64,000 nt of DNA, taken from positions 62,001-126,000 of the forward strand of contig NZ_OMOQ01000001.1 of NCBI RefSeq assembly GCF_900302475.1, read 5' to 3'. The position numbers and the translations under genes were made by a program. Below the pieces are notes generated by a model. It searched no databases and had not been told where the DNA came from. It saw only the letters and a program-made list of their open reading frames with translations. Source of the stretch: Defluviimonas aquaemixtae (GTDB taxonomy: Bacteria; Pseudomonadota; Alphaproteobacteria; Rhodobacterales; Rhodobacteraceae). Positions 20,942-33,663 of the stretch are shown piece by piece. Position 1 is the stretch's first letter. Each line of letters opens with the position of its first letter.

Positions 20942-21097
20942 CAACTCGCACCCGCCGTGCCAAACACATGCCGGGGCGCGAGCCTTGACCGTCCTGGGTC
21001 GTTTTCGGTTGTGCCGGGCTCCGGGGGGGCAAGATCGACAGGTCTTTGTCGTTGCGCCGTGCGTCTGCGCGGATGCCACGTCGGCCAGATACTCCAA

Positions 21098-22213
21098 CTA
21101 CGGCGACTTGGGCTGCTCGTCGGCGCTTTCAGGAGAATTGATCGTGTGTTGCTCTGCGAGCCGCTCGAATGTGCCTCGGTCGAGCGTTTGGCGCTGTCTT
21201 GGCTGAAGCGGCGTAAGTTCCACTGGGATATCGTGAAACCCGAACACGTTGCGCGCGATCTTCCGGACGATCGACGCAGGGTCGGCGCAGAGTTCTTCGT
21301 AGCTGACGACCGCGAAACGATCCGTGCCGAGGCGCTGCATCTGCTGTTCCTGCAGGCCATCGTAGAACCGGATTTGGCTCCGGACATCTTCGATGGGATC
21401 GTCAGGATACGCGCCGCCGCTTGCGGAGTGGTCGAGGCCGTAGCCGATCTTGGTCGAGCCTTGAATGTCGCGCCGCGCCTTCAGCAGAGACTGCGCGAGA
21501 TAGAGAGGATCACGGCGGAGGCAGACGAAGCGCGCGGTTGGCAGGATGGCCGCGACAAGATGCGCCGAGCCCAGGAGATTGTTATTCTTTGCCAAGACCG
21601 GCCGGCCGGACTGTCGCTCGAGGCGCGCGAAGAAACGGCGCATATCCTCGGTGGCACTTTCCGGAATCGATGACGGGATCGCGCGGCGGTCGGTGCCCAT
21701 CCATCGGTCCCAGAATTCAAGCCCGTCGCTTGGACCCGACAGCGACCGGGTGCGGCCGTAATAGCTTTCGAGGCGAACACGTTGGTTTGCAATTCCCCCG
21801 GTCAGAGGAAAGGCGCCAGATGCGGCGCTGCGCGGGAGCAGGCTTGCCAGGTTCGTGATGTAGGCGACGGGCAATGCCCGGATCAGGAGCTGGTGGAGAA
21901 GGGTGGTACCACTGCGTGGCGGCCCGGTGACGAAGAGGACCGGACGCGAGGGCGCCTCGGCCGCGTCGGCATCGCTCGCGACGAGACGCGCGATGGCCAT
22001 GTCGAAAGGCGCGAGCCCCAGCCGCAGCCCCGCCTGAAAAAGCGCAGCAAGGGCGTCGCGGTTACCGGACCGTAGAACGCGAAGTGCCAGTCCCGCCGGG
22101 TTGTGGAAGTGGCTTGGCACCACATGATGCAGCGCCCGACGGATTCGCCGTGAGTGACCGCCTTCCGGCGACAAGGATGCTAGATTCGGATCGCGTGCTT
22201 TTGGCTCGGGCAT
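21098..22213 (-). CDS. Sulfotransferase family protein
   Basis: A 371-residue protein with the PAPS-binding P-loop-like motif GPPRSGTTLLHQLL (about residues 97-110) and the downstream 3'-phosphate-binding region FVCLRRDPLYLAQSLL, both typical of Sulfotransfer_3 proteins. It would move sulfate from PAPS to a hydroxyl or amine of a glycan, lipid or small molecule. The N-terminal 90 residues are helical and basic with no signal peptide. The ATG at 22213 is preferred to a TTG at 22255, though neither has a strong ribosome site. It is divergent from the glycan cluster, so its acceptor may be that glycan (inference). Confidence 0.82.
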   Translation of the reverse strand: MPEPKARDPNLASLSPEGGHSRRIRRALHHVVPSHFHNPAGLALRVLRSGNRDALAALFQAGLRLGLAPFDMAIARLVASDADAAEAPSRPVLFVTGPPRSGTTLLHQLLIRALPVAYITNLASLLPRSAASGAFPLTGGIANQRVRLESYYGRTRSLSGPSDGLEFWDRWMGTDRRAIPSSIPESATEDMRRFFARLERQSGRPVLAKNNNLLGSAHLVAAILPTARFVCLRRDPLYLAQSLLKARRDIQGSTKIGYGLDHSASGGAYPDDPIEDVRSQIRFYDGLQEQQMQRLGTDRFAVVSYEELCADPASIVRKIARNVFGFHDIPVELTPLQPRQRQTLDRGTFERLAEQHTINSPESADEQPKSP

Positions 22214-22742
22214 CGTGGAATGACGTTCAAATGGCCCCCGCCTAGGTCGGCGCAAGATGGCGACGCACGGCAGGGCGGTGGCGCTTGCATCGAGGGGACA
22301 GGAAATCGGCGCTCATGGCAAGCCGTTCGACAATGAATATTCCGCGCGTGGATTAGTTCCGCGCGGACAACGTGCCGAAGGCGGATTCAATCCCAAGCGG
22401 TACAAAATGAGAAAAGCCTTCGATATTTCTTGACTGGACAGGGCGTTGCCCGGAACCTTGAAAGTGGTGGAAGGTCACGAATCGTCGCCCTGAAATCCTT
22501 CAGACGCGTAGCGTTGGACGGCTGGTCGACGAGGAAGTGTGGGTTCGGTTTTGACTACTTTCGACATGCTGAATTGACAAAAGGCGCATCTCGCGGTGCA
22601 GCTGCCATTACATCGCGCCGCAGAGTAGCCCTGAGGACCGACCGAAACCTTTGTGCGGGGTGGGAGGCCAATTGGTCGTGCCGATGCAAAACTACATTGG
22701 GAAGATTGAACCGGCCGCGCCGGGCGCCGGTTGGGCGGTTTC
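22214..22742. other. 529-base intergenic region between the sulfotransferase and glycan cluster
   Basis: No convincing gene is seen. The stretch looks less GC-rich than its surroundings and must hold the divergent promoters for the sulfotransferase and the nine-gene cluster. It contains a direct repeat TCCGCGCG at 22341-22348 and 22358-22365, and several TTGAC boxes (near 22433, 22551 and 22573) without a convincing -10 partner. At the right end an inverted repeat AACCGGC/GCCGGTT (22709-22732) abuts the ribosome site of the first cluster gene. ORFs in this stretch have no protein-like features. Confidence 0.6.
22709..22732 (+). promoter_or_regulatory. Hairpin next to the ribosome site of the first glycan-cluster gene
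   Basis: AACCGGC (22709-22715) and GCCGGTT (22726-22732) form a perfect 7-bp stem with a 10-base GC-rich loop. The GGGCGG ribosome-site candidate begins at 22733, directly after the stem, and the ATG is at 22743. A structure here could reduce translation of the whole coupled operon. Whether it acts as a regulator is inference. Confidence 0.35.
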
Positions 22743-23981
22743 ATGAACCAACCGGGATGTCGAACAAGAGATGTCTGGGGCACGAGCACGCCGCTGTCCA
22801 CGGACACGCGGAAGCGACCGGATTTGGACCCCCTGAAGGTCCTCTGCGCATTCGGAACCCGACCTGAGCTCATCAAGTTCCTTCCGGTCCTGCGCACGCT
22901 CCGGCGCCGGCGCGGCCTCATGCCGGTAACGGTACTCACGTCCCAGCATACCGACCTCGTCAAGCCGCTCATCGAGCTTTGGAAAATCCGGGTCGACCAT
23001 GATCTTGGCGCGATGGTTCACGGTCAGACGCTGAACAGCCTCTTATCCCGACTTGTCGCGCGTTTCGACGACGTACTCGCGGATGAGGCGCCGGACTTCG
23101 TGCTGGTTCAAGGCGATACGACGAGCGCGCTGGCCGCGGCGCAAGCTGCATGGCACCGCCAGATCCCGGTTGGGCACATCGAGGCCGGACTTCGGTCGGG
23201 AGCGCGCGAGAATCCCTTTCCCGAGGAGATGAACCGTCGACTCATCACGGCGCTCGCGACGCTGCATTTTGCCCCCACCGACCGAAATGTCGCGGCATTG
23301 CTGTCAGAAGGTGTGGCGCGCGATCGGATCATCCTGACCGGTAATCCGATCGTCGATGCGATCGGGCTGATCCGGAAACGGCAGACACCCTCGCCAGAGA
23401 TCCGGGACCTTGTCGCGAGTCTTGCCGGCCGCCGGCTCTTGCTTCTTACAACGCATCGCCGCGAGAGCTTCGGGGCGCTCATGCGCGGGCGTTTGCGCGT
23501 CTTGCGCGATTTCGTCGAGCGGCGGGCCGATGTCAGCCTCGTCTTCCCGGTGCATTGCAATCCAGCCGTCACCGAGGTCGCCACGCAAGAGTTAGGCGGG
23601 GTGCCGAACATCCATCTCGTGCCGCCGCTTCACTATCCCGATTTCCTGCATTGCCTCGCCTCCGCATGGCTCGTCGTGTCGGATTCGGGTGGCGTGCAGG
23701 AAGAGGCGCCGAGCCTCGGCAAGCCGCTGCTAATCCTTCGCGAAAACACAGAGCGGCCAGAGGTCGTGGAATCTGGCGTCGCGCGCCTCGTGGGCCGGAC
23801 ACCGCAGCGGCTTAGCGACGAATTGATCCTGGCTGAGGCGCAGGATTCTTGGGCGTATCGAGTGCAACCGATCGAAAACCCGTTCGGACGGGGGGAGAGT
23901 GCACGGCGCATCGTCGACGCGATTCAGGCGTGGCGCACTGAAGCCGCCATTCAAGGCAGGGGGGCGGCTGAGGCATCGTGA
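22743..23981 (+). CDS. UDP-N-acetylglucosamine 2-epimerase-type enzyme (WecB/WbpI-like)
   Basis: A 412-residue GT-B-fold epimerase that inverts C2 of a UDP-linked N-acetyl-sugar, usually UDP-GlcNAc to UDP-ManNAc. Motifs are FGTRPELIKF, VQGDTTSALAAA, GHIEAGLRS, FPEEMNRRLI, TTHRRESFG and SDSGGVQEEAPSLGKP, all at the expected places. The first 35 residues are an extra polar leader, so a later start is possible, but no strong internal site is seen. Because the cluster also has DegT, Gfo/Idh/MocA and acyltransferase genes, the substrate may be a 3-amino or 3-acylamino sugar, as for WbpI. It overlaps the next gene by four bases. Confidence 0.85.
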   Translation: MNQPGCRTRDVWGTSTPLSTDTRKRPDLDPLKVLCAFGTRPELIKFLPVLRTLRRRRGLMPVTVLTSQHTDLVKPLIELWKIRVDHDLGAMVHGQTLNSLLSRLVARFDDVLADEAPDFVLVQGDTTSALAAAQAAWHRQIPVGHIEAGLRSGARENPFPEEMNRRLITALATLHFAPTDRNVAALLSEGVARDRIILTGNPIVDAIGLIRKRQTPSPEIRDLVASLAGRRLLLLTTHRRESFGALMRGRLRVLRDFVERRADVSLVFPVHCNPAVTEVATQELGGVPNIHLVPPLHYPDFLHCLASAWLVVSDSGGVQEEAPSLGKPLLILRENTERPEVVESGVARLVGRTPQRLSDELILAEAQDSWAYRVQPIENPFGRGESARRIVDAIQAWRTEAAIQGRGAAEAS

Positions 23982-25609
23982 ACGACATCCGTCATCTACT
24001 TTCGGTCGACTTCGAGGAACATTTTCAGCTCGTGACCTCTGGGCGCGGAGTGCCGGAACGGCACTGGGATAGATTTCCTTCGCGGATCGTGGACAATACC
24101 GAGAGAGTTCTGCGCTTGCTGGACCGCCACGACACGAAGGCAACATTCTTCGTCGGTGACTGGGTCGCGGAACGATATGGCGCGCTGATCGCTGACATTG
24201 CCCTCGAAGGTCATGAGATCGCGTGCCGCCTTTCCCCGTCAAGGCGGCGGGCCGGACTCGCCTTCGCAGATCCTTCGCTGCACGCGGTTCAGTTCAAACG
24301 CCGGTTGGAGTCCGTGGCGGGCAGAGCCGTCCATGGATGCCGGATCGATCGCCCGGCAAGGGCGGTGCCATCTGGCGTCGGGTCGGGCGCCTCACCATTT
24401 CGGTACGAATGCCGCCCCGGGCCTGCCCTTGGCCCGCTTCGTGTCACCACACGAGCCGCATCGGACGGGACCCCCGTTCAGCTCGGTATGCCGAGCCTGC
24501 GCATCGCGGGGCAGGACGTGCCCCTCGTCGGCGGCGAGAGCCTCAGGCACGTGCCCGGCGCTCTCGAAAACCGCCTTCTCGCCGGCTGGGCGCGAAGCCG
24601 CGCGCCGCATCACTTCACGTTCAAGCTCTGGGAACTCGATCCCGACCTAGCGCGACTGGCGGTGCTTTCATCCGTCCAACGGCTTATTTGTTACCGAAAT
24701 CATCACCTGTTCGAGGAAAGGTTTGCGCGGCTTCTGGAGCGCGCGGCCTTCAGCCCAGTGCGGGCGCATCTCGGGCTTGCAGAGGAAAAAGTCGCCCGAA
24801 CCGCTCCGCTCGCGCCGGTTTCAGCGCCGCCCGCGGAGCCGGAAGTGCCGGGCGTGCCGGTCTCGATCATCGTGCCGTGCTTCAACGAGGAGGCAGGGCT
24901 TAGCTACCTCGCGAACGTGTTCTCGGCGCTCGATGCGGAACTCGGCCGGCGCCACAGGCTCAGCTTTGTCCTCGTCGATGATGGCAGTACCGACCGAACC
25001 CGGCAGGAAATGCAGCGGCTGTTCGGCCACGACGGACGATATCGGATCGTGCGGCATGAGATGAACAGGGGTATCGCGGCAGCCATTCTCACCGGAATCG
25101 GCGCGGCCAAGGACGACATCGTCGTCACCATGGATAGCGACTGTAGCTACGATCCGGCCCGGATTGAGGACATGCTGGCGCTGCTTGCGCCCGACGTGGC
25201 GTTGGTTACCGCCTCGCCCTATCACGCCGATGCCGGGGTTGAAGGCGTGCCCGGCTGGCGGATTTTCGTGTCGAGGGGCGCCTCATCGCTTTATCGAATG
25301 GTGCTTCGCACCCAGCTCGCGACCTACACCAGCTGCTTCCGCGTCTACCGGAAACGCGCTCTCGAAGGTCTGATTCTGCACCACGAAGGTTTCATCGGAG
25401 TCGCCGAGATGCTCGCGCGGCTGGATATGGCGGGCGGGCGGATTGCCGAATACCCGGTCGTGCTGGAGGCTCGGGTTCTTGGCCGTTCGAAACTCAGGCT
25501 GTTTCGTACGATTGTCGGACACTTGCGGCTGCTCGGCGCGATTTTTGCGACACGATTGCGGGACCGAAGACGCGCCGGTGCCATCGCATTGACGAAGGAG
25601 GAAGGTTGA
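23978..25609 (+). CDS. Pseudo-deacetylase / family 2 glycosyltransferase fusion
   Basis: A 543-residue two-domain protein. Residues 7-270 follow the polysaccharide deacetylase plan: SVDFEEHF at 9-16, ATFFVGDWVAERY, and a C-terminal block with LWELDPDLARL. But the metal-binding His-x3-His after GHEIAC is gone (it reads RLSPSRRR), and the RxPxx catalytic-arginine motif is replaced by CRIDRPARAVPSG, so this half is probably not catalytic. Residues 293-515 are an intact GT-A/GT2 domain: VSIIVPCFNEE, LVDDGSTDR and the DxD motif DSD at 386-388, resembling dolichol-phosphate mannosyltransferase or ArnC enzymes that act on polyprenyl phosphate. The start is GTG 23978, overlapping the epimerase stop. 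Confidence 0.82.
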   Translation: MNDIRHLLSVDFEEHFQLVTSGRGVPERHWDRFPSRIVDNTERVLRLLDRHDTKATFFVGDWVAERYGALIADIALEGHEIACRLSPSRRRAGLAFADPSLHAVQFKRRLESVAGRAVHGCRIDRPARAVPSGVGSGASPFRYECRPGPALGPLRVTTRAASDGTPVQLGMPSLRIAGQDVPLVGGESLRHVPGALENRLLAGWARSRAPHHFTFKLWELDPDLARLAVLSSVQRLICYRNHHLFEERFARLLERAAFSPVRAHLGLAEEKVARTAPLAPVSAPPAEPEVPGVPVSIIVPCFNEEAGLSYLANVFSALDAELGRRHRLSFVLVDDGSTDRTRQEMQRLFGHDGRYRIVRHEMNRGIAAAILTGIGAAKDDIVVTMDSDCSYDPARIEDMLALLAPDVALVTASPYHADAGVEGVPGWRIFVSRGASSLYRMVLRTQLATYTSCFRVYRKRALEGLILHHEGFIGVAEMLARLDMAGGRIAEYPVVLEARVLGRSKLRLFRTIVGHLRLLGAIFATRLRDRRRAGAIALTKEEG

Positions 25610-25610
25610 G

Positions 25611-26849
25611 ATGACGAGTGTGCAGGTATCCGGGCTGACAGTGCCTCCTATTCCATCGGATCAGGACGCAAGCGGTCGGCAGCTTGGCGACGAGGAGATC
25701 GAGATGCTCGCGCGCGCGGTGCGCAGCGGCACGTTGACGAGCACCAAGGGGACATTCGTCAAGGCATTCGAAGAGGGGTTCAGCAAGCGGATCGGTGTCG
25801 CGCACGCCGCCGCCTGCGCGTCGGGCACGAGCGCCATACATGCGGCGGTCGCCGCCATCGACCCTGAACCCGGAGACGAGATCGTGACCTCTCCGGTCAC
25901 CGACATGGGTGCGATTACGCCGATCATCTACCAGACCGCCGTACCGGTATTCGCCGATGTCGACGCTTCCTCTGGCAATATCACCGCCGAGACGGTCGAG
26001 CGTGTCCTCGGCCCCAAGACGCGCGCAATCGTGGTCACACATCTTTTCGGAAATCCGGCCGAGATGGGTCCGATCCTCGAGCTCGCTGAATCGCGGGGCA
26101 TCGCGGTCATCGAGGATTGCGCCCAAGCTTTCGGCGCTACATATGACGGACGACCCGTTGGCACGCTGGGCGCGATCGGATGTTACAGTCTTCAACAGGG
26201 CAAGCACATCACGACCGGCGAAGGCGGCATTGTGATCTCGAACGACGACCGCTTGGCCCGCCGGGTCAAGCTGTTCATCGACAAGGCCTGGGGCTACGGG
26301 GACCCCAGCCCGGATCACTACTTCGCCGCACTGAACGGCCGGATGAGCGAGCTGCAGGGCGCCGTCGCGACCGCGCAGCTAGGCAAGCTCTCCCAAAGCA
26401 TCAGCCAGCGACAGCGGATGGCCGAGCGGCTGACTTGTGCGATCGGCGACATTGAAGGGATTTACGCGCCCTGCGTGCCGAAGGCCGGCCGGCATAGTTT
26501 CTGGAAATACGCGCTGCGTGTCTCTCTGGATCTCGGCGGGCCAGACGTACTGGCGGCCGCGTTGCGAACTGGCGACATCGCATCGGCGCCGCGCTACATC
26601 CGCAAGCCGGCCTTCGAATGCGCCGTGATCCGTGACCAGCGGACCTTCGGAAACAGCCGATTTCCGTTCTCGCTCGCGCGCCCCGAGATTCTCGACTACG
26701 CGCCGGAACGGTACCCGGGGGTTTACCGGTTCCTGCGAGATGTCCTGGTCTTGCCCTGGAACGAGCGGCTCGAGGAGTCGCATGTCGATCTGATCGCCGA
26801 CCGGCTTCGTGCCTATGCGGCCAGCGAAGCCGCGGGCGCGGCGCAATGA
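25611..26849 (+). CDS. DegT/DnrJ/EryC1/StrS sugar aminotransferase
   Basis: A 412-residue PLP enzyme that aminates a keto-sugar nucleotide. The Schiff-base lysine is Lys198 in SLQQGKHITTGEGG; the cofactor aspartate is in VIEDCAQAFGA (Asp169); SGTSAIHAAV binds the phosphate. With the next gene (oxidoreductase) it forms the GnnB/GnnA or WbpE/WbpB pairing, which installs a 3-amino group on UDP-GlcNAc or its uronate. It starts one base after the GT2 stop and its end overlaps the next start (ATGA). The exact sugar is inferred from neighbours. Confidence 0.88.
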   Translation: MTSVQVSGLTVPPIPSDQDASGRQLGDEEIEMLARAVRSGTLTSTKGTFVKAFEEGFSKRIGVAHAAACASGTSAIHAAVAAIDPEPGDEIVTSPVTDMGAITPIIYQTAVPVFADVDASSGNITAETVERVLGPKTRAIVVTHLFGNPAEMGPILELAESRGIAVIEDCAQAFGATYDGRPVGTLGAIGCYSLQQGKHITTGEGGIVISNDDRLARRVKLFIDKAWGYGDPSPDHYFAALNGRMSELQGAVATAQLGKLSQSISQRQRMAERLTCAIGDIEGIYAPCVPKAGRHSFWKYALRVSLDLGGPDVLAAALRTGDIASAPRYIRKPAFECAVIRDQRTFGNSRFPFSLARPEILDYAPERYPGVYRFLRDVLVLPWNERLEESHVDLIADRLRAYAASEAAGAAQ

Positions 26850-27868
26850 GCGGCGCATTCAGACTTGGCCTTGTTGGCGCTGGGGCGATCGCGCGCAGCT
26901 ATGCGGCGGCCATCTCGGGCGGAGGAACGGCGCAGCTTGTCGCGGTGGCCGATACCGATGGTGACGCGGCCGCGGCCTTCGCGCGCGACACCGGCGCCGT
27001 TCCCTTTTCGTCGCACCGCGACTTGGCGGCGGCCTCGATCTGCGACGCGGTGCTCGTGACGACACCGCCGGCGACCCATGCCGCCATCGTGATCGATTTG
27101 GTGTCACGTGGTCTTCCCGTTCTATGCGAGAAGCCGCTCAGCATAACTCTCGACTCGGCGCGGCAGATGACACAGGCGGCAGCAGACAACGGTGTCGTCT
27201 TGTCGATGGCGTCCAAATTCCGGTTCGTCGATGACGTGATCAGGGCGCGCGAGATGATCGCCGAGGGCGCCATTGGCGCTCCGCTCATGCTGGAAAACGT
27301 CTTCACCAGCGTCGTCGACATGACGAACCGTTGGAATGCGGACGCCCGCATCAGCGGCGGCGGAGTGCTGATCGACAACGGCACCCACAGCATCGACATC
27401 GTGCGCTATTTCCTGGGGCCGATCACGGAGGTATTCGCGGTCGCCGGGCCACGCATGCAGCCGGTCGGGGTCGAAGACACAGTAACCCTTATCGCGCGGA
27501 CCGCAGGTGGGGCGCAGACGACGGTTGAAACATCGTGGAGCCTGCACAAGGACCGAAGCGCATTCATCGCCGTATATGGAACGGAAGGCGCCATCGAGGT
27601 CGGCTGGCAGGGCTCGCGCTTTCGGCGCGGGCGAGCCGGGATCTGGGAGCCGTACGGCACTGGCTACGACAAGTCGGCGGCATTCGCACGGCAGATCGAC
27701 CATTTCGCTGCGGTCGTTCGCGGCGAGGACAAACCGCTGCCCGATGCTGCGGACGCTCTCGCCTCCGTCGCAGTGATCCAGGCGGCGTACCGATCCATCG
27801 CGACCGGGCGCTGGGTTCCGGCCGAGCCGGATCTGGCCCATTCGCCCTTCATGGAAATTGCCCGATGA
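26846..27868 (+). CDS. Gfo/Idh/MocA-family sugar oxidoreductase
   Basis: A 340-residue NAD(P)-dependent dehydrogenase. The N-terminal Rossmann fold begins LGLVGAGAIARSYAAAI. The family signature CEKPLS (Glu95, Lys96, Pro97) is present, and the catalytic-type histidine is His181 in LIDNGTHSIDIVRYF. In GnnA and WbpB, such enzymes oxidise C3 of UDP-GlcNAc or its uronate before transamination by a DegT partner, which is the preceding gene here. No UDP-sugar 6-dehydrogenase (WbpA-like) is in the window, so the GnnA-type reaction is the simpler reading. It is coupled to both neighbours by four-base overlaps. Confidence 0.86.
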   Translation: MSGAFRLGLVGAGAIARSYAAAISGGGTAQLVAVADTDGDAAAAFARDTGAVPFSSHRDLAAASICDAVLVTTPPATHAAIVIDLVSRGLPVLCEKPLSITLDSARQMTQAAADNGVVLSMASKFRFVDDVIRAREMIAEGAIGAPLMLENVFTSVVDMTNRWNADARISGGGVLIDNGTHSIDIVRYFLGPITEVFAVAGPRMQPVGVEDTVTLIARTAGGAQTTVETSWSLHKDRSAFIAVYGTEGAIEVGWQGSRFRRGRAGIWEPYGTGYDKSAAFARQIDHFAAVVRGEDKPLPDAADALASVAVIQAAYRSIATGRWVPAEPDLAHSPFMEIAR

Positions 27869-28491
27869 ATGTGCGCATTCATCCGACTGCGATCGTGGAA
27901 GATGGTGTCGAGATCGGAGATGGGACCTCGATCTGGGATAACGTTCACATCCGGGGGCCATCGAGGATCGGCCGCGACTGTATCATCGGCGGCAAGACCT
28001 ACATCGCTTACGGCGTGGAGATTGGCGACCGCGTGAAGGTCAATTCCTTCGTCTACATCCCGACCGGCGTGACGGTGGAAACCGGTGTAATGATCGCGGC
28101 TGGCACGATCTTTGCAAACGACCGGTTTCCGCGCGCGACGACGCCGGACCTGAGTACTTTGCGTGGATCCGGCCCCGACGAGCATACCGAGCCGACGGTC
28201 GTGCGCGAAGGTGCCACGCTCGGGGCAGGGTGCCGCTTGGGTCCGGGGATCGAGATCGGAGCATTTGCGCTTGTCGGTATGGGGTCGGTCGTGACCAGGA
28301 GCGTCTTTCCTCACGCACTGGTCGCCGGCAATCCCGCGAAACCCGTCGGTCTCGTCTGCCGCTGTGGAGAAAGACTCTACTCCGGCGACCCCGAAGCCGC
28401 CAAGGACGGGTTGTTGCGCTGCGAAATCTGCGCCGACACTTACCGGTTGAAGAACGGACGGCTACTTGCGCCAGCCGCTGCTCGGGCATGA
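27865..28491 (+). CDS. Left-handed beta-helix sugar N-acyltransferase (WbpD-like) with C-terminal zinc ribbon
   Basis: A 208-residue hexapeptide-repeat transferase, probably trimeric. Coils are visible from IHPTAIVEDGVEIGDGTSIW through VREGATLGAGCRLGPGIEIG, with the conserved ending VAGNPAKPVG. This matches WbpD/WlbB enzymes that acetylate the 3-amino group of UDP-sugars using acetyl-CoA. After the helix come two Cys pairs (CRCGERL and RCEICADTY), a likely small zinc ribbon. Its place directly after the aminotransferase and oxidoreductase fits N-acylation of their product. The acyl donor is not certain. Confidence 0.85.
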   Translation: MNVRIHPTAIVEDGVEIGDGTSIWDNVHIRGPSRIGRDCIIGGKTYIAYGVEIGDRVKVNSFVYIPTGVTVETGVMIAAGTIFANDRFPRATTPDLSTLRGSGPDEHTEPTVVREGATLGAGCRLGPGIEIGAFALVGMGSVVTRSVFPHALVAGNPAKPVGLVCRCGERLYSGDPEAAKDGLLRCEICADTYRLKNGRLLAPAAARA

Positions 28492-29831
28492 ACGCGCAGG
28501 GAAAAAGAACCTGGTGCGTAGCGGGCGGTGGCGTTCTCGGTCAGGTGATCGCGCTCCGGCTTGCGCAGGCCGGTCACCATGTCTCCGTCCTCGAGGCGGC
28601 ACCTGAGACTGGAGGGCTCGCAGCGAGTTGGAGCATCGACGACATTGTCTGGGATAAGCACTACCATGTAATCCTGCCTGCGGACCGCAGAACCCTCGAA
28701 TTGGTTAGTGAGCTCGGACTTTCCAGCGCGCTTGTCTGGAAGCGCTCGCGGACGGGGTTTTTCGCTGACGGGCGGCTGTCACCGCTCAACAGTGCAGTGG
28801 ACTACCTGCGCCTTCCCTCGCTCGGGATTCTTGCCAAGGCGAGACTTGCCTTCACGCTGATGTGGGCTGCGCGGATTGAGGATGGCCGGCCGCTCGACCA
28901 GGTGCCGGTCGGGGATTGGTTGACGAAGTGGTCCGGCCGCGAAGCGTACGAGCGGCTCTGGCGGCCGCTCCTGCGCGCCAAACTCGGCACCAACGATGAC
29001 CGTGCCTCGGCCGCGTTCATTTGGGCCACAGTGCGCCGGCTGTATCTTGCGCGGAGCGCCGGCGCCAAGACCGAAACTCTCGGCTTCATCGACGGCGGCT
29101 ACGACAGGATCCTCAGCGCGCTGCGCGACCGCCTTTCCAGTGCCGGCGTCGACATCGTCACGGGCTGCCCGATCACGAGAATCGCTCCGCAGGGCGATCA
29201 ATTGCAGGTCGAGACCGCGAAAGGCGCCCGGCTGTTCGACGACGTCGTATCGACCTTGCCCTGCGGCGTCACCGCGCGGCTCTGCGATGCACTGTCGCCC
29301 GAGCTGAAGGCGCGCCTCGACAGCGTGGTCTATCAGGGCATCATCTGCGCGTCGCTCGTCCTCGACCGCCCGCTCGGCGGCTACTACCTGACCTACTTGA
29401 CCGATTCCGACCTGCCCTTCACCGCCGTCGTCGAGATGTCAGCCCTCGCCGGCCGCGAGCGGTTCGGCGGGAAAAGCCTTGTCTACCTGCCGCGGTACGT
29501 TGCACAAGATGATCCCTTCTGGGAGCTTGACGATGGCGCGGTGCGGGCCCGGTTCGTCGCCGGCATCACACGCATCTATCCGGACCTTGATCCGGGCGCC
29601 ATTCGCGCGTTCCGCCTCTCGCGCGTACGCAACGTCATGGCGGTTCCAACGGTTGGATATCTTGACGCGGTGCCTGCCGTCGAAACCAACATTCCGGGCT
29701 TCCATATCGTCAATTCGGCGCAGATCACGGACGGCACACTCAACGTGGATGCCACACTCGGCGTAGCCGAAGCCGCCCTGCCACGGCTTCTGGGCGGCGC
29801 CATGGCCGACAATCTGAGCTCGGCGGCATGA
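28488..29831 (+). CDS. FAD/NAD(P)-dependent oxidoreductase (amine oxidase / HemY-like fold)
   Basis: A 447-residue flavoprotein. The dinucleotide-binding motif is CVAGGGVLGQVIALRLAQAG at the N-terminus, followed by VLEAAPETGGLAASW, where FAD ribose would bind. The middle (GTNDDRASAAFIWATVRRL, FIDGGYDRILSAL) and the end (NSAQITDGTLNVDATLG) are typical of the protoporphyrinogen-oxidase-like and UDP-galactopyranose-mutase-like superfamily. No heme genes are nearby; it is embedded in a sugar and polyprenyl operon with four-base overlaps, so it probably acts on the sugar or lipid carrier. The reaction is unknown. Confidence 0.75.
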   Translation: MNAQGKRTWCVAGGGVLGQVIALRLAQAGHHVSVLEAAPETGGLAASWSIDDIVWDKHYHVILPADRRTLELVSELGLSSALVWKRSRTGFFADGRLSPLNSAVDYLRLPSLGILAKARLAFTLMWAARIEDGRPLDQVPVGDWLTKWSGREAYERLWRPLLRAKLGTNDDRASAAFIWATVRRLYLARSAGAKTETLGFIDGGYDRILSALRDRLSSAGVDIVTGCPITRIAPQGDQLQVETAKGARLFDDVVSTLPCGVTARLCDALSPELKARLDSVVYQGIICASLVLDRPLGGYYLTYLTDSDLPFTAVVEMSALAGRERFGGKSLVYLPRYVAQDDPFWELDDGAVRARFVAGITRIYPDLDPGAIRAFRLSRVRNVMAVPTVGYLDAVPAVETNIPGFHIVNSAQITDGTLNVDATLGVAEAALPRLLGGAMADNLSSAA

Positions 29832-30841
29832 GACGGAAACTCGCGAGCCTGTCTCTCGACCTCGACAACCTGTGGTCCTACATGAAGACGCACGGCGATC
29901 CGGGTTGGGAGACATTTCCCTCCTATCTCGATGTGGTTGTGCCGCGTGTCCTGACGCTTCTCGATGCTCTGTCCCTGAAGATCACCGTTTTCGTGGTTGG
30001 CAAGGACGCGGCACTCGAGAAGAATCATGCGGCGCTCCGATTGATCGCTGACGCCGGCCACGAAATTGGCAATCATTCCTTTCATCACGAACCCTGGTTG
30101 CATCTCTACTCAGCTGACGAGGTTGCGGACGAGATCGAGGGGGCGGAACATGCAATCGCCGCCGCGACAGGCACGCTTCCAACGGGGTTCCGCGGACCCG
30201 GCTACAGCCTGTCGGAAACCGTGATCCGCGTTCTCATCGAACGGGGATACCGTTATGACTGCTCGACTTTCCCGACCTTTGTCGGACCCCTGGCGCGTGC
30301 ATACTACTTTTTCAACGCGCGCCTCGACGCGGCGGAGAAGGCCATGCGGAAGGCGCTGTTCGGCGGATTGCGCGACGGACTTCGCCCGCTTGTCCCCTAT
30401 CATTGGGTCCTTGGCGGGGGTCGGCTATTGGAAATCCCGGTCACGACGATGCCGATCGCGCGCTTTCCCATGCATTTCAGCTATCTGCACTGGATCGCCG
30501 GCAGATCTGAGCCGCTTGCCCACGCCTATTTCGCCGCGGCGCTGCGAAGCTGCAATCTCTGCGGGATCACACCGTCCTTACTTTTACATCCGCTCGACTT
30601 CATGGGGCGCGACGACGTGGAAAGGCTCGCGTTCTTCCCGGGCATGGACCGGACGGCCGAGGTCAAAATGGCCCGCATGGGCCGCTGGCTCGCCACGCTG
30701 AGCGATCGGTTTGACGTCGTGCCGATCCGCGACCACGCAGCTGCGCTCGAGGGACGTTCGTTACCGCTCCGCAGACCGGACTTCAGCGCCGCGCCGGCCG
30801 CGCGACAGGCTAGGGGGCGCATGGGGCTGGACAAGCGATGA
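29828..30841 (+). CDS. Polysaccharide deacetylase family protein, intact active site
   Basis: A 337-residue NodB-homology enzyme. Catalytic motifs are present: the aspartate pair in SLDLDN (Asp11, Asp13), His83-x3-His87 in GNHSFHH as metal ligands, and FRGPGYS (Arg122) as motif 3. There is no signal peptide, so it should act in the cytoplasm, like ArnD, which deformylates a lipid-linked amino sugar. The C-terminal region has LLLHPLDFMG. It contrasts with the degenerate deacetylase domain in the GT2 fusion of the same operon. It overlaps both neighbours by four bases. Confidence 0.85.
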   Translation: MRRKLASLSLDLDNLWSYMKTHGDPGWETFPSYLDVVVPRVLTLLDALSLKITVFVVGKDAALEKNHAALRLIADAGHEIGNHSFHHEPWLHLYSADEVADEIEGAEHAIAAATGTLPTGFRGPGYSLSETVIRVLIERGYRYDCSTFPTFVGPLARAYYFFNARLDAAEKAMRKALFGGLRDGLRPLVPYHWVLGGGRLLEIPVTTMPIARFPMHFSYLHWIAGRSEPLAHAYFAAALRSCNLCGITPSLLLHPLDFMGRDDVERLAFFPGMDRTAEVKMARMGRWLATLSDRFDVVPIRDHAAALEGRSLPLRRPDFSAAPAARQARGRMGLDKR

Positions 30842-32475
30842 CCGACGCTGCTGATCCCATGGACGAAAACGCCGCCGGTGCCGCGTTGGGTCGGGGGAAG
30901 GCGACGATCGTCTTCCTCGGCATCGTTCTGGGCTACCTTCTCACCGCGCCGACGAACCACTCCCTGTCCGTCGATACCTACTACTACGCTTTGATCATCA
31001 CCCACGACCCGATCATCGATGTTGAGAACCCACGGCTGTTTCTGTGGCTCGCCGCGATGAAGGGCCTTTACCGGCTGGCCTCGGCAGTTCTTACCGATAT
31101 TGACCTGTTCCGACTGATTGGGGTGGTGAACGCAGTCCTGGCGTCTCTTGCCGTGATGCTGCTTGCGCGACTTCTTGTACGTGATTTCAGCCTGGCGAGA
31201 CGAAGCGCCTGGCTCACCGCTGGCCTTTTCGCGAGCTGCTACGGATTCTGGCGCTACGCGACCGAGATCGAGGTCTATGCGAGCGCGGTGCTGTTGTCGT
31301 TGCTTCTTGTTCACGCGGCATTCCGCCTTGTCCGCAATGCGCCCGCGCGCTCGTTCGGATCTGTCCTCGGTCTTGCCGTGCTGGGGGGCATCGGCACTCT
31401 CACGTATCAGCCGATCGGCATCGTAGCCGGGCTGGTGGTCCCAGTCTTTCTGCTGCTGAGCGGACGGATCCGGTATCTCGCACAATACAGCGCGATAGCG
31501 GGCGCCATGGTCATCGGAGGTTTCGGGCTGGCCGCCCATCTCGGGACGGAGGAGGAGGCTGCGCATGCCGTTTCATTTGTGCTTCAGGCCGATCACGTGG
31601 CTCCCAAACTTCCGTCGCCAATGTCGCTTGCGAAGATGGTCTACGCAGTCAGCCACGACCTCTTGTCCACGAACTGGATGTTCGCAATCGAATCCTTGCG
31701 CGAGCGGTTCCGTCTGACCGAAGGTTTTTTCTTGCACCAGGAGCACCGGTTCGTGGCCGAGAATGCTGGTCCGCAAGTCTGGGTGGCGCTCGCGACGCTC
31801 CCGGCCGCCGCCGTACTCGGCCTCGTCATCATCGGGACGGCGTGGCGGACTAAGCCACGCCAAGCTATCGACGCTCGCGAGGCTGCGGTGATCGTCTGGC
31901 TAGTCGCGCACGGCGCAATGATGCTGACCTTGTCGCCCTTGGGCTTCGAAGGGTGGATCCCCGGCCTCGTACCGCTCGCGGTTCTTTCGGGGAAACGACT
32001 GATCGCCCCTTGTGTCGCGGCCGACCGGTCTGCGGTGGTTGCCGCCCTTTTGGCAGTGTTCATCGTGCACAACGGGATTGTCGGCATTGGCACGCAGATG
32101 CGGGAAGCGGGTGACTACCTTCACACGCGCGGCACTGCACTGATCGAGCGTGTCCGCCCCGGCGACCTCATCGTGATGGCGGCGCACTGGAATCTCGAAC
32201 GCTACCTGCGGTTCAACAATGCGCCTCGCGCGATCATCGTCGAAAAGGAGGGGGTCAATGCGGTCCGCCGCGCGATCGAGGAGACGCTCGATCGGGGCGG
32301 ACGGGTCTTGATCCTCGACGATGTTGCGGCGCCGACGCGGCTTAGCCGGGGACGCCGGGTTCTTGTGCCGGACCTCGTTGCGCTGACGAACGATTATCTG
32401 GGAAACGCAGAGCGGTTTGCGACCGGGCAGGCCGGTTGGGCCTATGAGGTCAGGCGGGAAGAGGACAAGGAGTGA
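30838..32475 (+). CDS. GT-C-like polytopic glycosyltransferase (DUF2723/GT39-like)
   Basis: A 545-residue membrane protein with roughly ten to twelve hydrophobic helices and a soluble C-terminal portion from about residue 430 (LIVMAAHWNLERYLRFNN). The first outer loop contains SVDTYYYALIITHDP, and after helix 3 there is YATEIEVYASAV, a pattern seen in DUF2723/PMT-like GT-C proteins that use polyprenyl-phosphate sugars on the periplasmic side. It would be the ArnT-like final transferase of this pathway. The acceptor (lipid, protein or glycan) cannot be told. It is coupled to both neighbours. Confidence 0.72.
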   Translation: MTDAADPMDENAAGAALGRGKATIVFLGIVLGYLLTAPTNHSLSVDTYYYALIITHDPIIDVENPRLFLWLAAMKGLYRLASAVLTDIDLFRLIGVVNAVLASLAVMLLARLLVRDFSLARRSAWLTAGLFASCYGFWRYATEIEVYASAVLLSLLLVHAAFRLVRNAPARSFGSVLGLAVLGGIGTLTYQPIGIVAGLVVPVFLLLSGRIRYLAQYSAIAGAMVIGGFGLAAHLGTEEEAAHAVSFVLQADHVAPKLPSPMSLAKMVYAVSHDLLSTNWMFAIESLRERFRLTEGFFLHQEHRFVAENAGPQVWVALATLPAAAVLGLVIIGTAWRTKPRQAIDAREAAVIVWLVAHGAMMLTLSPLGFEGWIPGLVPLAVLSGKRLIAPCVAADRSAVVAALLAVFIVHNGIVGIGTQMREAGDYLHTRGTALIERVRPGDLIVMAAHWNLERYLRFNNAPRAIIVEKEGVNAVRRAIEETLDRGGRVLILDDVAAPTRLSRGRRVLVPDLVALTNDYLGNAERFATGQAGWAYEVRREEDKE

Positions 32476-33515
32476 GTTCGCGCCTTCGGAAGCTATTCTA
32501 TCCAGTGCTCCGGCTGGCGGTCGCCGGGGTCATTTTCGCCGTCCTCGCCGGCATCATGAATTTTGGCGAAACGCTCGCCGTACTGGGCGCATCCGAGCCA
32601 TCACTTGTCGCCGCCGCTATGGTCCTCTTTGGGGTCGGACAGGTGCTCTCGTGCGTTCGCTGGCGGCTGACGCTGTCGCAGATCATTGCTGCGCCGCCGC
32701 GGGTCCTGATGCTTCTGCGGCTGTACCTGATCGGCATGTTCGTGAACCTCGGACTTCCGACGATGACTGGGGGCGATATCGTGCGCGCAGAGCTATTGCG
32801 CCGCTTTGGTGGAGGCCGTGGCGGCGCATATGCCAGCATCTTCGCCGACCGGCTGGTCGGCGTGCTCGCAGTGGTTCTCGTGGCCATCGGCGCCATTGCG
32901 CTGGCGGGCGACCGGATCGATGGGCAGTCGCGGCACCTCGTGCTCGTCGCTTTGCTTGGACTGACGTGCGCGCTTGTCGTGTTCGTTCTAGTTTTCTCCT
33001 GGTCGCGTGCGCGATTGCGCTGGCCTGCGCTTGGCACTTTCTTCGAGGCGCTCCGCCTGCTCAGGCGACGGCCGCGCGTTCTGGCCCTGAGTCTCGCGAT
33101 CGCGATCTCCGTTCAGGTGATCGGTGTCATTGTGCCGATCGTCCTTCTTGCCTGGGCGATGTCGATCGCGATCCCCGTCGCGGTCCATTTTGCCCTGATT
33201 CCGATCATCGTCCTCGCGGCGCTCGTGCCCGTGGCGCCGAACGGATTGGGTGTGAGAGAGGCCGCCTTCGTCGTTCTTTACGGCCAGTTCGGCGTCGGGC
33301 CCGAACCAGCCTTCGCGCTTGGCCTGTCCTGGAGCATCGTGCTGACCATCTATGGGCTTTTCGGTGGGCTAGCCTTGGCCTTTGGGGACCCGAGCGTGCG
33401 ATCTGGCGCTCTTGGCGGGGCGAGGCAGAAACAGGATTGTCACGGCGCGACCACACAACACCGCTCGGACGGAGTTGTCTTGGGCGCGTTGCGGAGGAGT
33501 TGGCCCTGGCGCTAG
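32472..33515 (+). CDS. UPF0104 / LPG-synthase transmembrane-domain protein
   Basis: A 347-residue membrane protein with about eight helices and the signature FVNLGLPTMTGGDIVRAELL of the UPF0104 (YbhN, LPG_synthase_TM) family, plus VPVAPNGLGVREAAFV near the end. It lacks the catalytic aminoacyl-transfer domain of MprF, so only the flippase-like half is present. At the end of a polyprenyl-sugar operon, a lipid-linked sugar flipping role is attractive but inferred. GTG 32472 overlaps the GT-C stop. It is the last gene of the nine-gene run. Confidence 0.8.
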   Translation: MSSRLRKLFYPVLRLAVAGVIFAVLAGIMNFGETLAVLGASEPSLVAAAMVLFGVGQVLSCVRWRLTLSQIIAAPPRVLMLLRLYLIGMFVNLGLPTMTGGDIVRAELLRRFGGGRGGAYASIFADRLVGVLAVVLVAIGAIALAGDRIDGQSRHLVLVALLGLTCALVVFVLVFSWSRARLRWPALGTFFEALRLLRRRPRVLALSLAIAISVQVIGVIVPIVLLAWAMSIAIPVAVHFALIPIIVLAALVPVAPNGLGVREAAFVVLYGQFGVGPEPAFALGLSWSIVLTIYGLFGGLALAFGDPSVRSGALGGARQKQDCHGATTQHRSDGVVLGALRRSWPWR

Positions 33516-33573
33516 AAGCGGAGCTGCCTTGCTTGGCCGATTGAATGCTTAGAAATCGATTTTCCAGCCACTG

Positions 33574-33605
33574 TCATGCCCGATCACAGAGAGCTTAGGG
33601 CATGA
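33574..33605. repeat. Inverted repeat between convergent genes
   Basis: TCATGCCC (33574-33581) and GGGCATGA (33598-33605) form a perfect 8-bp stem with a 16-base loop in the 148-base gap between the end of the glycan operon and the convergent mcd gene. It has no T-run, so a terminator role is only possible, not shown. Confidence 0.35.
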
Positions 33606-33663
33606 AATGCGTGCCCGCCCCGATACCGGTGACCGCTCTTGCGGACGAGCACCGGGCGATTCC

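Follow-up and report, generated by a model that had tools for sequence, protein, structure and literature searches.

A nine-gene operon of Defluviimonas aquaemixtae that may decorate a periplasmic acceptor with a lipid-linked amino sugar

Nine complete open reading frames, all on the forward (+) strand, span positions 22743-33515 of the Defluviimonas aquaemixtae window, the stretch of 64,000 nucleotides that was analysed here. The computed junctions confirm the tight packing described in the initial annotation: seven successive pairs share 4-bp stop-start overlaps (at 23978, 26846, 27865, 28488, 29828, 30838 and 32472), and the single gap, at 25610, measures 1 bp. With families assigned by Pfam and NCBIfam, and the GT-C protein by its predicted structure, the order is WecB-type epimerase, GT2, DegT, GFO/IDH/MocA, left-handed beta-helix (LbH), flavin amine-oxidase type, polysaccharide deacetylase, GT-C and LPG_synthase_TM/UPF0104. 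None of the nine proteins belongs to a Wzx, Wzy, ABC or priming transferase family in Pfam or NCBIfam, in agreement with the absence of these families noted at first. The block is flanked by MFS and acyl-CoA dehydrogenase genes, which are near neighbours of each other in three of the five relatives read. Between these flanks there is also a divergent sulfotransferase-family gene (21098..22255, reverse (-) strand; PF13469), part of the same inserted block, with an unproven link to the operon. A simple scan of 22200-22743, upstream of gene 1, revealed no sigma-70 site.

Gene 1 (22743..23981) seems to encode a non-hydrolysing UDP-GlcNAc 2-epimerase of the WecB type (TIGR00236, 369 bits; cut-off 210). 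The WecB domain starts only at residue 31 and the gene start is uncertain. The best PDB matches are UDP-GlcNAc 2-epimerase chains with approximately 300 bits; the diacetamido-glucuronic acid epimerase 8sxv scores 145. Genes 3 to 5 make up a putative cassette for the modification of an amino sugar. Gene 3 (25611..26849) is a predicted DegT/DnrJ/EryC1 PLP aminotransferase (PF01041, 266 bits), with 7b0m (182 bits) and the perosamine synthetase 3bn1 (180 bits) as its top PDB chains and WbpE lower (116 bits); it scores 152 bits with the NCBIfam ArnB model NF008658, far under the cut-off of 631. Gene 4 (26846..27868) is assigned by Pfam to the GFO/IDH/MocA NAD-dependent sugar dehydrogenases and has as its best PDB chain 3q2k, which we take to be WlbA. 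Its NCBIfam matches, inositol 2-dehydrogenase (136 bits) and UDP-GlcNAc 3-dehydrogenase (119 bits; cut-off 450), both lie far below cut-off. Gene 5 (27865..28491; PF00132) is a predicted LbH acyltransferase with four Cys in the C-terminal tail of its translation, and is closest in the PDB to 3mqg, a 'Lipopolysaccharides biosynthesis acetyltransferase' that is presumably WlbB. A diamino-type sugar cassette, as originally suggested, is supported in D. aquaemixtae. Among named PDB chains gene 3 is nearest to perosamine synthetases, and gene 4 is far under the UDP-GlcNAc 3-dehydrogenase cut-off; amination at C3 is therefore insecure. We propose that gene 4 oxidises C3 of the sugar, while the position of the amination cannot be fixed from the gene 3 sequence.

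Gene 2 (23978..25609; PF11959, PF01522, PF00535) combines a degenerate NodB/DUF3473 deacetylase domain (residues about 8-263) with a DPMS/ArnC-like GT2 (residues about 294-530), and no transmembrane helix was indicated in it by hydropathy. Its N-terminal domain, of the XrtA/DUF3473 type (TIGR03006, 117 bits, under the cut-off of 276), was missed when the gene was first described as an ArnC-like GT2. We applied to this domain the published meaning of the CE4/NodB motifs (PMC10967932). Both aligned zinc His are kept in none of 128 alignment rows (127 distinct proteins); the first occurs in 4 rows, the second in 89, and the first motif-1 Asp in 21. The two His columns are gapped in 5 and 21 rows, and an H-x3-H is shifted downstream in 11. 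Judged by this alignment, the deacetylase domain has lost its zinc site. The GT2 part finds its best PDB chain in 5mlz (DPMS) and is nearest to DPMS and ArnC in the PDB; the PpgS and ArnC models are matched weakly (ArnC NF007986, 48.7 bits against a cut-off of 529). Its substrate specificity is not readable from the sequence.

Genes 6 and 7 encode a flavoenzyme and a second, apparently intact deacetylase. Gene 6 (28488..29831), a predicted PRK07233-type FAD-dependent oxidoreductase, had been counted at first without being named, and was found in every cluster read. We know of no step in Arn, Gtr or a similar decoration pathway that needs such an enzyme. Gene 7 (29828..30841; PF01522) is of the NodB type, with motif 1 from about residue 9 and no signal peptide seen. 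Its residues D11, D13, H83, H87, R122, P124, D144 and H254 are conserved in 119-120 of the best 120 matches, its own sequence included (D11 and D13 in 119; H83, H87, R122 and P124 in all 120), in accordance with the initial description of an ArnD-like deacetylase with intact motifs. By sequence, the protein has the motif-1 Asp pair, the zinc His pair and the Arg and Pro of motif 3 that define CE4/NodB enzymes.

Gene 8 (30838..32475) has no Pfam or NCBIfam match at E <= 0.001, the ArnT family included, and its identification as a membrane glycosyltransferase comes from the predicted structure, which has the GT-C fold and so backs the original guess. STT3, PMT and AglB are among its best structural matches. 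A transfer to protein, with the GT-C enzyme placing a single lipid-linked amino sugar on secreted or lipoprotein targets in the manner of PMT and STT3, would fit these matches, and also the neighbourhoods of archaeal UPF0104 genes. In one published account, the latter have as neighbours either an AglD-like glycosyltransferase with a PMT/STT3-related protein or a glycosyltransferase with a polysaccharide deacetylase, and their products are predicted to be glycosylation flippases (PMC5898192). These archaeal cases are predictions, and the neighbourhoods described there include no flavoenzyme or amino-sugar cassette (PMC5898192). The GT-C fold, however, is uninformative on the acceptor, because ALG12, ArnT and STT3 are nearly tied in Z, and by eye the ORF lists of the loci contain no additional shared gene fit as a glycosylation target. 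We thus regard protein glycosylation as unlikely. The window and Sedimenticola GT-C proteins are only 28% identical; the family is diverse, and the acceptors could therefore differ. Gene 9 (32472..33515; PF03706, 116 bits; TIGR00374) encodes a UPF0104/LPG_synthase_TM membrane protein, a putative flippase, and shares only 24% identity with its counterpart in Sedimenticola. The flippase position assigned to it at first agrees with the other loci, as a UPF0104 or SMR protein lies 3' of the GT-C gene in 8/9 of them; an SMR protein takes the UPF0104 position in two Rhodobacterales loci.

Genomes were selected with the gene 7 profile (E <= 1e-60), which matched 3/385, 5/61 (one already counted), 1/1 (already counted) and 1/195 in the four genome sets. 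GT2, FAD, deacetylase and GT-C genes are contiguous in this order in all eight distinct genomes with such a match, one of them a gammaproteobacterium, and the same contiguous core was found in two further genomes via the GT-C gene. Nine other loci keep the core of genes 2, 6, 7 and 8 side by side in this order, which is more than chance would give. A WecB gene lies ahead of the GT2 gene in 7/9 of these. In five loci WecB, the core and UPF0104 are present but the 3-amino cassette is missing, and another two also lack one end gene; genes 3-5 therefore look like an inserted, accessory module that changes the sugar. As read from these loci, the conserved unit is GT2-FAD-deacetylase-GT-C, usually with WecB and UPF0104; it is smaller than the nine families initially proposed. 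LpxC is present in six of the seven host genomes checked, and was not detected in G1032 (genome 96% complete). DegT, GFO and LbH genes are frequent in exopolysaccharide and O-antigen loci, where they could serve as accessory genes with no lipid carrier, the GT2 acting on a soluble or growing-chain acceptor. This seems very unlikely here: by Pfam and NCBIfam, polymerase, exporter and priming enzyme families are absent from the nine genes, the neighbours vary by eye from locus to locus except within one genus, and GT-C and flippase-type genes recur instead.

No published description of the nine-gene system was found in the literature searched. The order of operations is the same as in the Arn (L-Ara4N) pathway, which proceeds through an aminotransferase, the ArnC GT2, a NodB-type unmasking, an ArnT-fold GT-C and a flippase, with the Arn deformylation replaced here by a proposed deacetylation. 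With the corrections given above, the Arn-like lipid-carrier logic of the initial annotation, in a self-contained system, is well supported for the putative polyprenyl-phosphate GT2, the deacetylase, the flippase-like protein and the GT-C. An Arn locus was nevertheless rejected, as the aminotransferase and GT2 fall far under the ArnB and ArnC cut-offs and neither the ArnT family nor the UDP-GlcA decarboxylase/formyltransferase ArnA is found among the nine proteins (Pfam, NCBIfam). With the Wbp/Wlb UDP-diacetamido pathway the operon has in common the trio of dehydrogenase, aminotransferase and LbH acyltransferase. A diacetamido-uronic acid locus of that kind was likewise rejected: Pfam finds no UDP-GlcNAc 6-dehydrogenase among the nine, the epimerase is WecB-like rather than of the WbpI type by the PDB scores given above, the aminotransferase is not closest to WbpE, and the trio is optional. 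The locus is thus neither Arn nor Wbp.

Precedents are found in two published systems. In the three-component (Gtr-type) systems and their pentofuranose variant, a polyprenyl-phosphate sugar synthase, a flippase and a GT-C are encoded together, much as their putative counterparts are here; the operon differs from those described by its additional deacetylase, flavoenzyme and degenerate deacetylase domain, and by UPF0104 rather than a GtrA or MATE flippase (PMC11127046). In Francisella, a C55-P-linked amino hexose, Und-P-galactosamine, is passed to lipid A by the dedicated transferase FlmK, similar to what we propose for the operon (PMC6581854). The sugar genes differ between the two. The Francisella pathway, in which NaxD and FlmF2 also take part, has an unmasking step as well, with a deacetylase of another family than gene 7, and to our knowledge no flavoenzyme.

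An amino-glycolipid is a further alternative, in which a membrane lipid would be glycosylated by the GT2, its sugar then unmasked by the deacetylase and the cationic product flipped by UPF0104, with the GT-C adding it onward or acting separately. A glycosyltransferase, a deacetylase and a UPF0104/MprF-type flippase are the known trio for amino-sugar lipids in GpgSDF (Pseudomonas aeruginosa) and HexSDF (Clostridioides difficile) (PMC12713373, PMC10128005). The operon carries a deacetylase and a UPF0104 gene likewise (genes 7 and 9), and the UPF0104 protein of locus L005 matches NCBIfam GlcN_PG_flip, though weakly, scoring 19.8 bits where the cut-off is 320. However, GpgSDF and HexSDF appear in these sources as three-gene operons without GT-C or sugar-nucleotide genes, in which GpgS belongs to GT4 and HexS carries the annotation of an MGDG synthase (PMC12713373, PMC10128005). 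The gene 2 GT2, in contrast, resembles DPMS/ArnC. The glycosyltransferase matches of gene 2 in Pfam and NCBIfam are to GT2-type families only, with none of the GT4/MGDG-synthase type. In addition, a GT-C gene is present in 9/9 other loci, and the GT-C of described three-component systems takes a lipid-linked donor. These differences make the amino-glycolipid improbable.

The analysis shows which genes are present, how their products are predicted to fold, which motifs are kept or lost and how the gene order is conserved. On these grounds, our best explanation is that the nine genes form an extracytoplasmic glycosylation system of the three-component type that includes an unmasking of the amino group, and that they moved horizontally as a block; we give this explanation as a whole a probability of roughly 0.65. 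The reactions, the identity of the sugar, the order of the gene 6 and gene 7 steps and the acceptor are what we infer. Gene 1 would supply UDP-ManNAc, and genes 4, 3 and 5 would oxidise a UDP-HexNAc (probably at C3), aminate it and N-acylate it to a 2,3-diamino-mannose- or glucose-type UDP sugar. At the cytoplasmic face, the GT2 part of gene 2 would transfer the sugar from UDP to polyprenyl phosphate and gene 7 would strip the lipid-linked sugar of an N-acetyl group, while gene 6 may carry out a flavin-dependent redox reaction on the same intermediate or on the carrier. Gene 9, or an SMR protein in some relatives, would flip the lipid-linked sugar, and gene 8 would pass it to an acceptor in the periplasm; a ubiquitous acceptor, e.g. 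lipid A/LPS, is most likely.

We also suggest, tentatively and at clearly less than even odds for all its parts jointly, that the operon represents a modular and so far undescribed class of systems for amino-sugar decoration in the periplasm of distant Pseudomonadota. Its core would include a flavin redox step on the polyprenyl-phosphate sugar or carrier, which we know of in none of the described three-component systems, together with a deacetylase domain that serves the GT2 as a non-catalytic partner. In Rhodobacterales, a swappable 3-amino cassette would make a 2,3-diaminomannose system out of a ManNAc-type one. If our explanation is right, a self-contained lipid-linked amino-sugar system joins the small set with understood chemistry (Arn, Flm, Gtr), and the UPF0104 and PRK07233 proteins gain a concrete, testable role. 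It would also mean that a sugar-changing cassette can slot into a decoration system and move with it as one block, and an envelope that carries a free amino group would differ in surface charge.

The operon (22743-33515, plus strand) holds nine ORFs; stop and start codons overlap by 4 bp at seven junctions, and a gap of 1 bp lies at the remaining one. According to Pfam and NCBIfam, they encode in order a WecB epimerase (gene 1), a GT2 (gene 2; 23978-25609), a DegT aminotransferase (gene 3), a GFO/IDH/MocA dehydrogenase (gene 4), a hexapeptide acyltransferase (gene 5), a PRK07233 flavoprotein (gene 6), a polysaccharide deacetylase (gene 7), a membrane protein without family match (gene 8, here GT-C) and an LPG_synthase_TM (UPF0104) protein (gene 9). 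The initial annotation was correct in all coordinates, families and overlaps, as judged from ORF calls, computed junctions and both family databases, but left the flavoprotein unnamed and overlooked a second domain in gene 2.

A core of GT2, FAD flavoprotein, deacetylase and GT-C is contiguous in all eight distinct genomes with a gene 7 profile match at E <= 1e-60 (3/385 genomes of the class; 5/61 of one order, one of them already found in the class search; the single genome of another order, also already found; and 1/195 of the order of Sedimenticola). A GT-C alignment scan pointed to five loci, three of which carry the core: L003 (uncultured Rhodobacteraceae bacterium, on a contig identical to that of locus L024), L004 (Ruegeria sp. 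THAF57) and L005 (the gammaproteobacterium Sedimenticola selenatireducens). No other core gene was found beside the GT-C of L006 and L007, MAG contigs titled Kiritimatiellaeota and Lentisphaerae, whose GT-Cs are distant relatives (26-35% identity).

We compared nine non-window clusters (L004, L005, L022, L023, L024 and L031-L034), which are not nine independent events because several are close relatives, four in one genus. WecB lies upstream of GT2 in seven of the nine, the exceptions being L024, in whose genome it is located elsewhere, and L005. Immediately before the Sedimenticola GT2, a short WecB-like stretch (L005 5702-5905; 38% over 68 aa) may be what is left of an epimerase gene that was lost. 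UPF0104 follows GT-C in six clusters (L005, L023, L031-L034). In two others its place is taken by a 117-aa SMR-family protein, whose gene converges on that of GT-C (L024 9557-9910, plus strand; L004 11564-11917, minus strand). This protein matches ArnF and ArnE weakly and below cut-off, alongside efflux SMR proteins, and likely represents a flippase swap. Neither protein was found after GT-C in L022; queries for both searches were drawn from these same loci, and the families were Pfam-confirmed for the four proteins scanned.

The DegT-GFO-LbH cassette (genes 3-5) occurs between GT2 and FAD only in the window, in Ruegeria (Rhodobacterales) and in L024, which belongs to the window's own family in the grouping used. 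Five of the nine loci have WecB, the core and UPF0104 in this order without the cassette; L022 and L005 also lack it and each miss one end gene. This distribution is most simply read as a six-gene ManNAc-type system that gained a 3-amino cassette by insertion within Rhodobacterales. A methyltransferase with a Cys-rich N-terminus lies near the cluster in each of the other two loci with the cassette (L024 8630-9532, plus strand; L004 1215-2129, minus strand); none is seen among the window's nine genes.

Gene 2 is a GT2 fused to a degenerate deacetylase domain. Its match to TIGR03006 (XrtA-type polysaccharide deacetylase) spans residues 8-122 and reaches 117 bits, where the cut-off is 276; DUF3473 covers residues 171-263. 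The GT2 occupies residues about 294-530 and has DPMS 5mlz and ArnC as top PDB relatives; in Ruegeria the GT2 is free-standing (281 aa). The public model of gene 2 (P0014; 373 aa, 69% of the protein) omits most of the N-terminal domain, which is present in full in relatives. In deacetylases of this type, the Asp residues for catalysis and metal binding belong to motif 1 and the His pair that binds the metal to motif 2; pseudoenzymes are already known among NodB proteins (PMC10967932). Of 7996 sequences scored in our search, 1929 were relatives at E <= 0.001. The alignment comprises 119 of the best 120, leaving out P0014, together with the window's gene 2 and another eight fusion proteins from fetched loci; its 128 rows stand for 127 distinct proteins, since P0031 is the L024 protein. 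Both aligned zinc histidines occur together in none of the 128 rows; the first is kept in 4 and the second in 89 (with gaps in 5 and 21 rows, respectively), and the first motif-1 Asp in 21. A control XrtA deacetylase above the family cut-off (L036) has the motif-1 Asp and both His. The six-gene clusters retain the second His (e.g. GHEIACQNYFH), and the window protein has lost both (GHEIACRLSPS). In eleven rows, none of them close to the window protein, an H-x3-H sits a few residues past the usual place (P0046, P0051, P0052, P0055, P0056, P0091, P0102, P0110, P0113, P0114 and P0130), where it could still constitute a metal site. In gene 7, Asp11, Asp13, His83, His87, Arg122, Pro124, Asp144 and His254 are kept in 119-120 of the 120 best matches, the window's own copy among them.

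Genes 1, 3, 4 and 5 would supply the UDP sugar. For gene 1, the match to WecB-type chains reaches about 300 bits versus 145 for 8sxv, so that it likely epimerises UDP-GlcNAc. The top PDB matches of genes 4 and 5 are 3q2k and 3mqg, which we take to be WlbA and WlbB, indicating C3 oxidation, amination and N-acylation. However, gene 3 is nearer to 7b0m and perosamine synthetases (180 bits) than to WbpE (116), and gene 4 falls far under the NCBIfam UDP-GlcNAc 3-dehydrogenase cut-off, so that the site of amination is not secure. By a simple hydropathy scan, neither gene 2 nor gene 7 has a clear membrane segment or signal peptide (gene 7 shows two borderline windows, both within its domain), and we hence assign transfer of the sugar to the carrier by gene 2 and deacetylation by gene 7 to the cytoplasmic face. 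Gene 9 would then flip the product and gene 8 transfer it outside. This scheme follows the three-component logic and resembles the Francisella C55-P-galactosamine/FlmK case (PMC11127046 and PMC6581854, respectively). LpxC was found in six of seven host genomes checked, not in G1032, so that lipid A could serve as acceptor in most of them.

The operon would work like the Arn, Flm and Gtr systems; membership of the Arn pathway itself was rejected by NCBIfam. It shares the deacetylase and UPF0104 with GpgSDF and HexSDF, but its GT2 and GT-C are absent from those three-gene operons as described in PMC12713373 and PMC10128005. In archaea, AglD-like, PMT/STT3-related and deacetylase genes have been noted before as neighbours of UPF0104 (PMC5898192).

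Judging by genome comparisons, the block is an insertion in the window genome. No match spanning gene 2 was found in other genomes of the genus (22 searched, own included), where the remaining matches cover mainly the GT2 part. Gene 8 is present in 2/244 genomes of the order, one being its own, and gene 7 in 1/398 sampled from the phylum (its own; E <= 1e-30). Among 20 relatives carrying the downstream acyl-CoA dehydrogenase, five were sampled as 19.9-kb stretches, which gave no match to any of the nine genes (E <= 1e-10). In three of these, 20-110 bp separate the MFS match from that of the dehydrogenase; the distance is 1.9 kb in one, and no MFS match was seen in the fifth. In the window, about 12.7 kb (20942-33663) separates the two, containing the operon and a divergent sulfotransferase-family gene (21098-22255, minus strand; PF13469), which might act on what the operon makes or else be a passenger. 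The block showed neither repeats nor a compositional signature of insertion.

Gene 6 is present in all ten clusters, window counted, and scores 413 bits against PRK07233 (cut-off 252), a model whose only description is 'hypothetical protein' and whose name was not found in the literature searched. The structural model of gene 6 fits the flavin oxidoreductase fold common to protoporphyrinogen oxidase, phytoene desaturase, amine oxidases and UGM. The gene 6 step may be oxidation of the lipid-linked sugar, a ring change or alteration of the polyprenyl chain, with no preference among the three. The interest of this operon lies in its modularity, its degenerate domain and this flavoenzyme.
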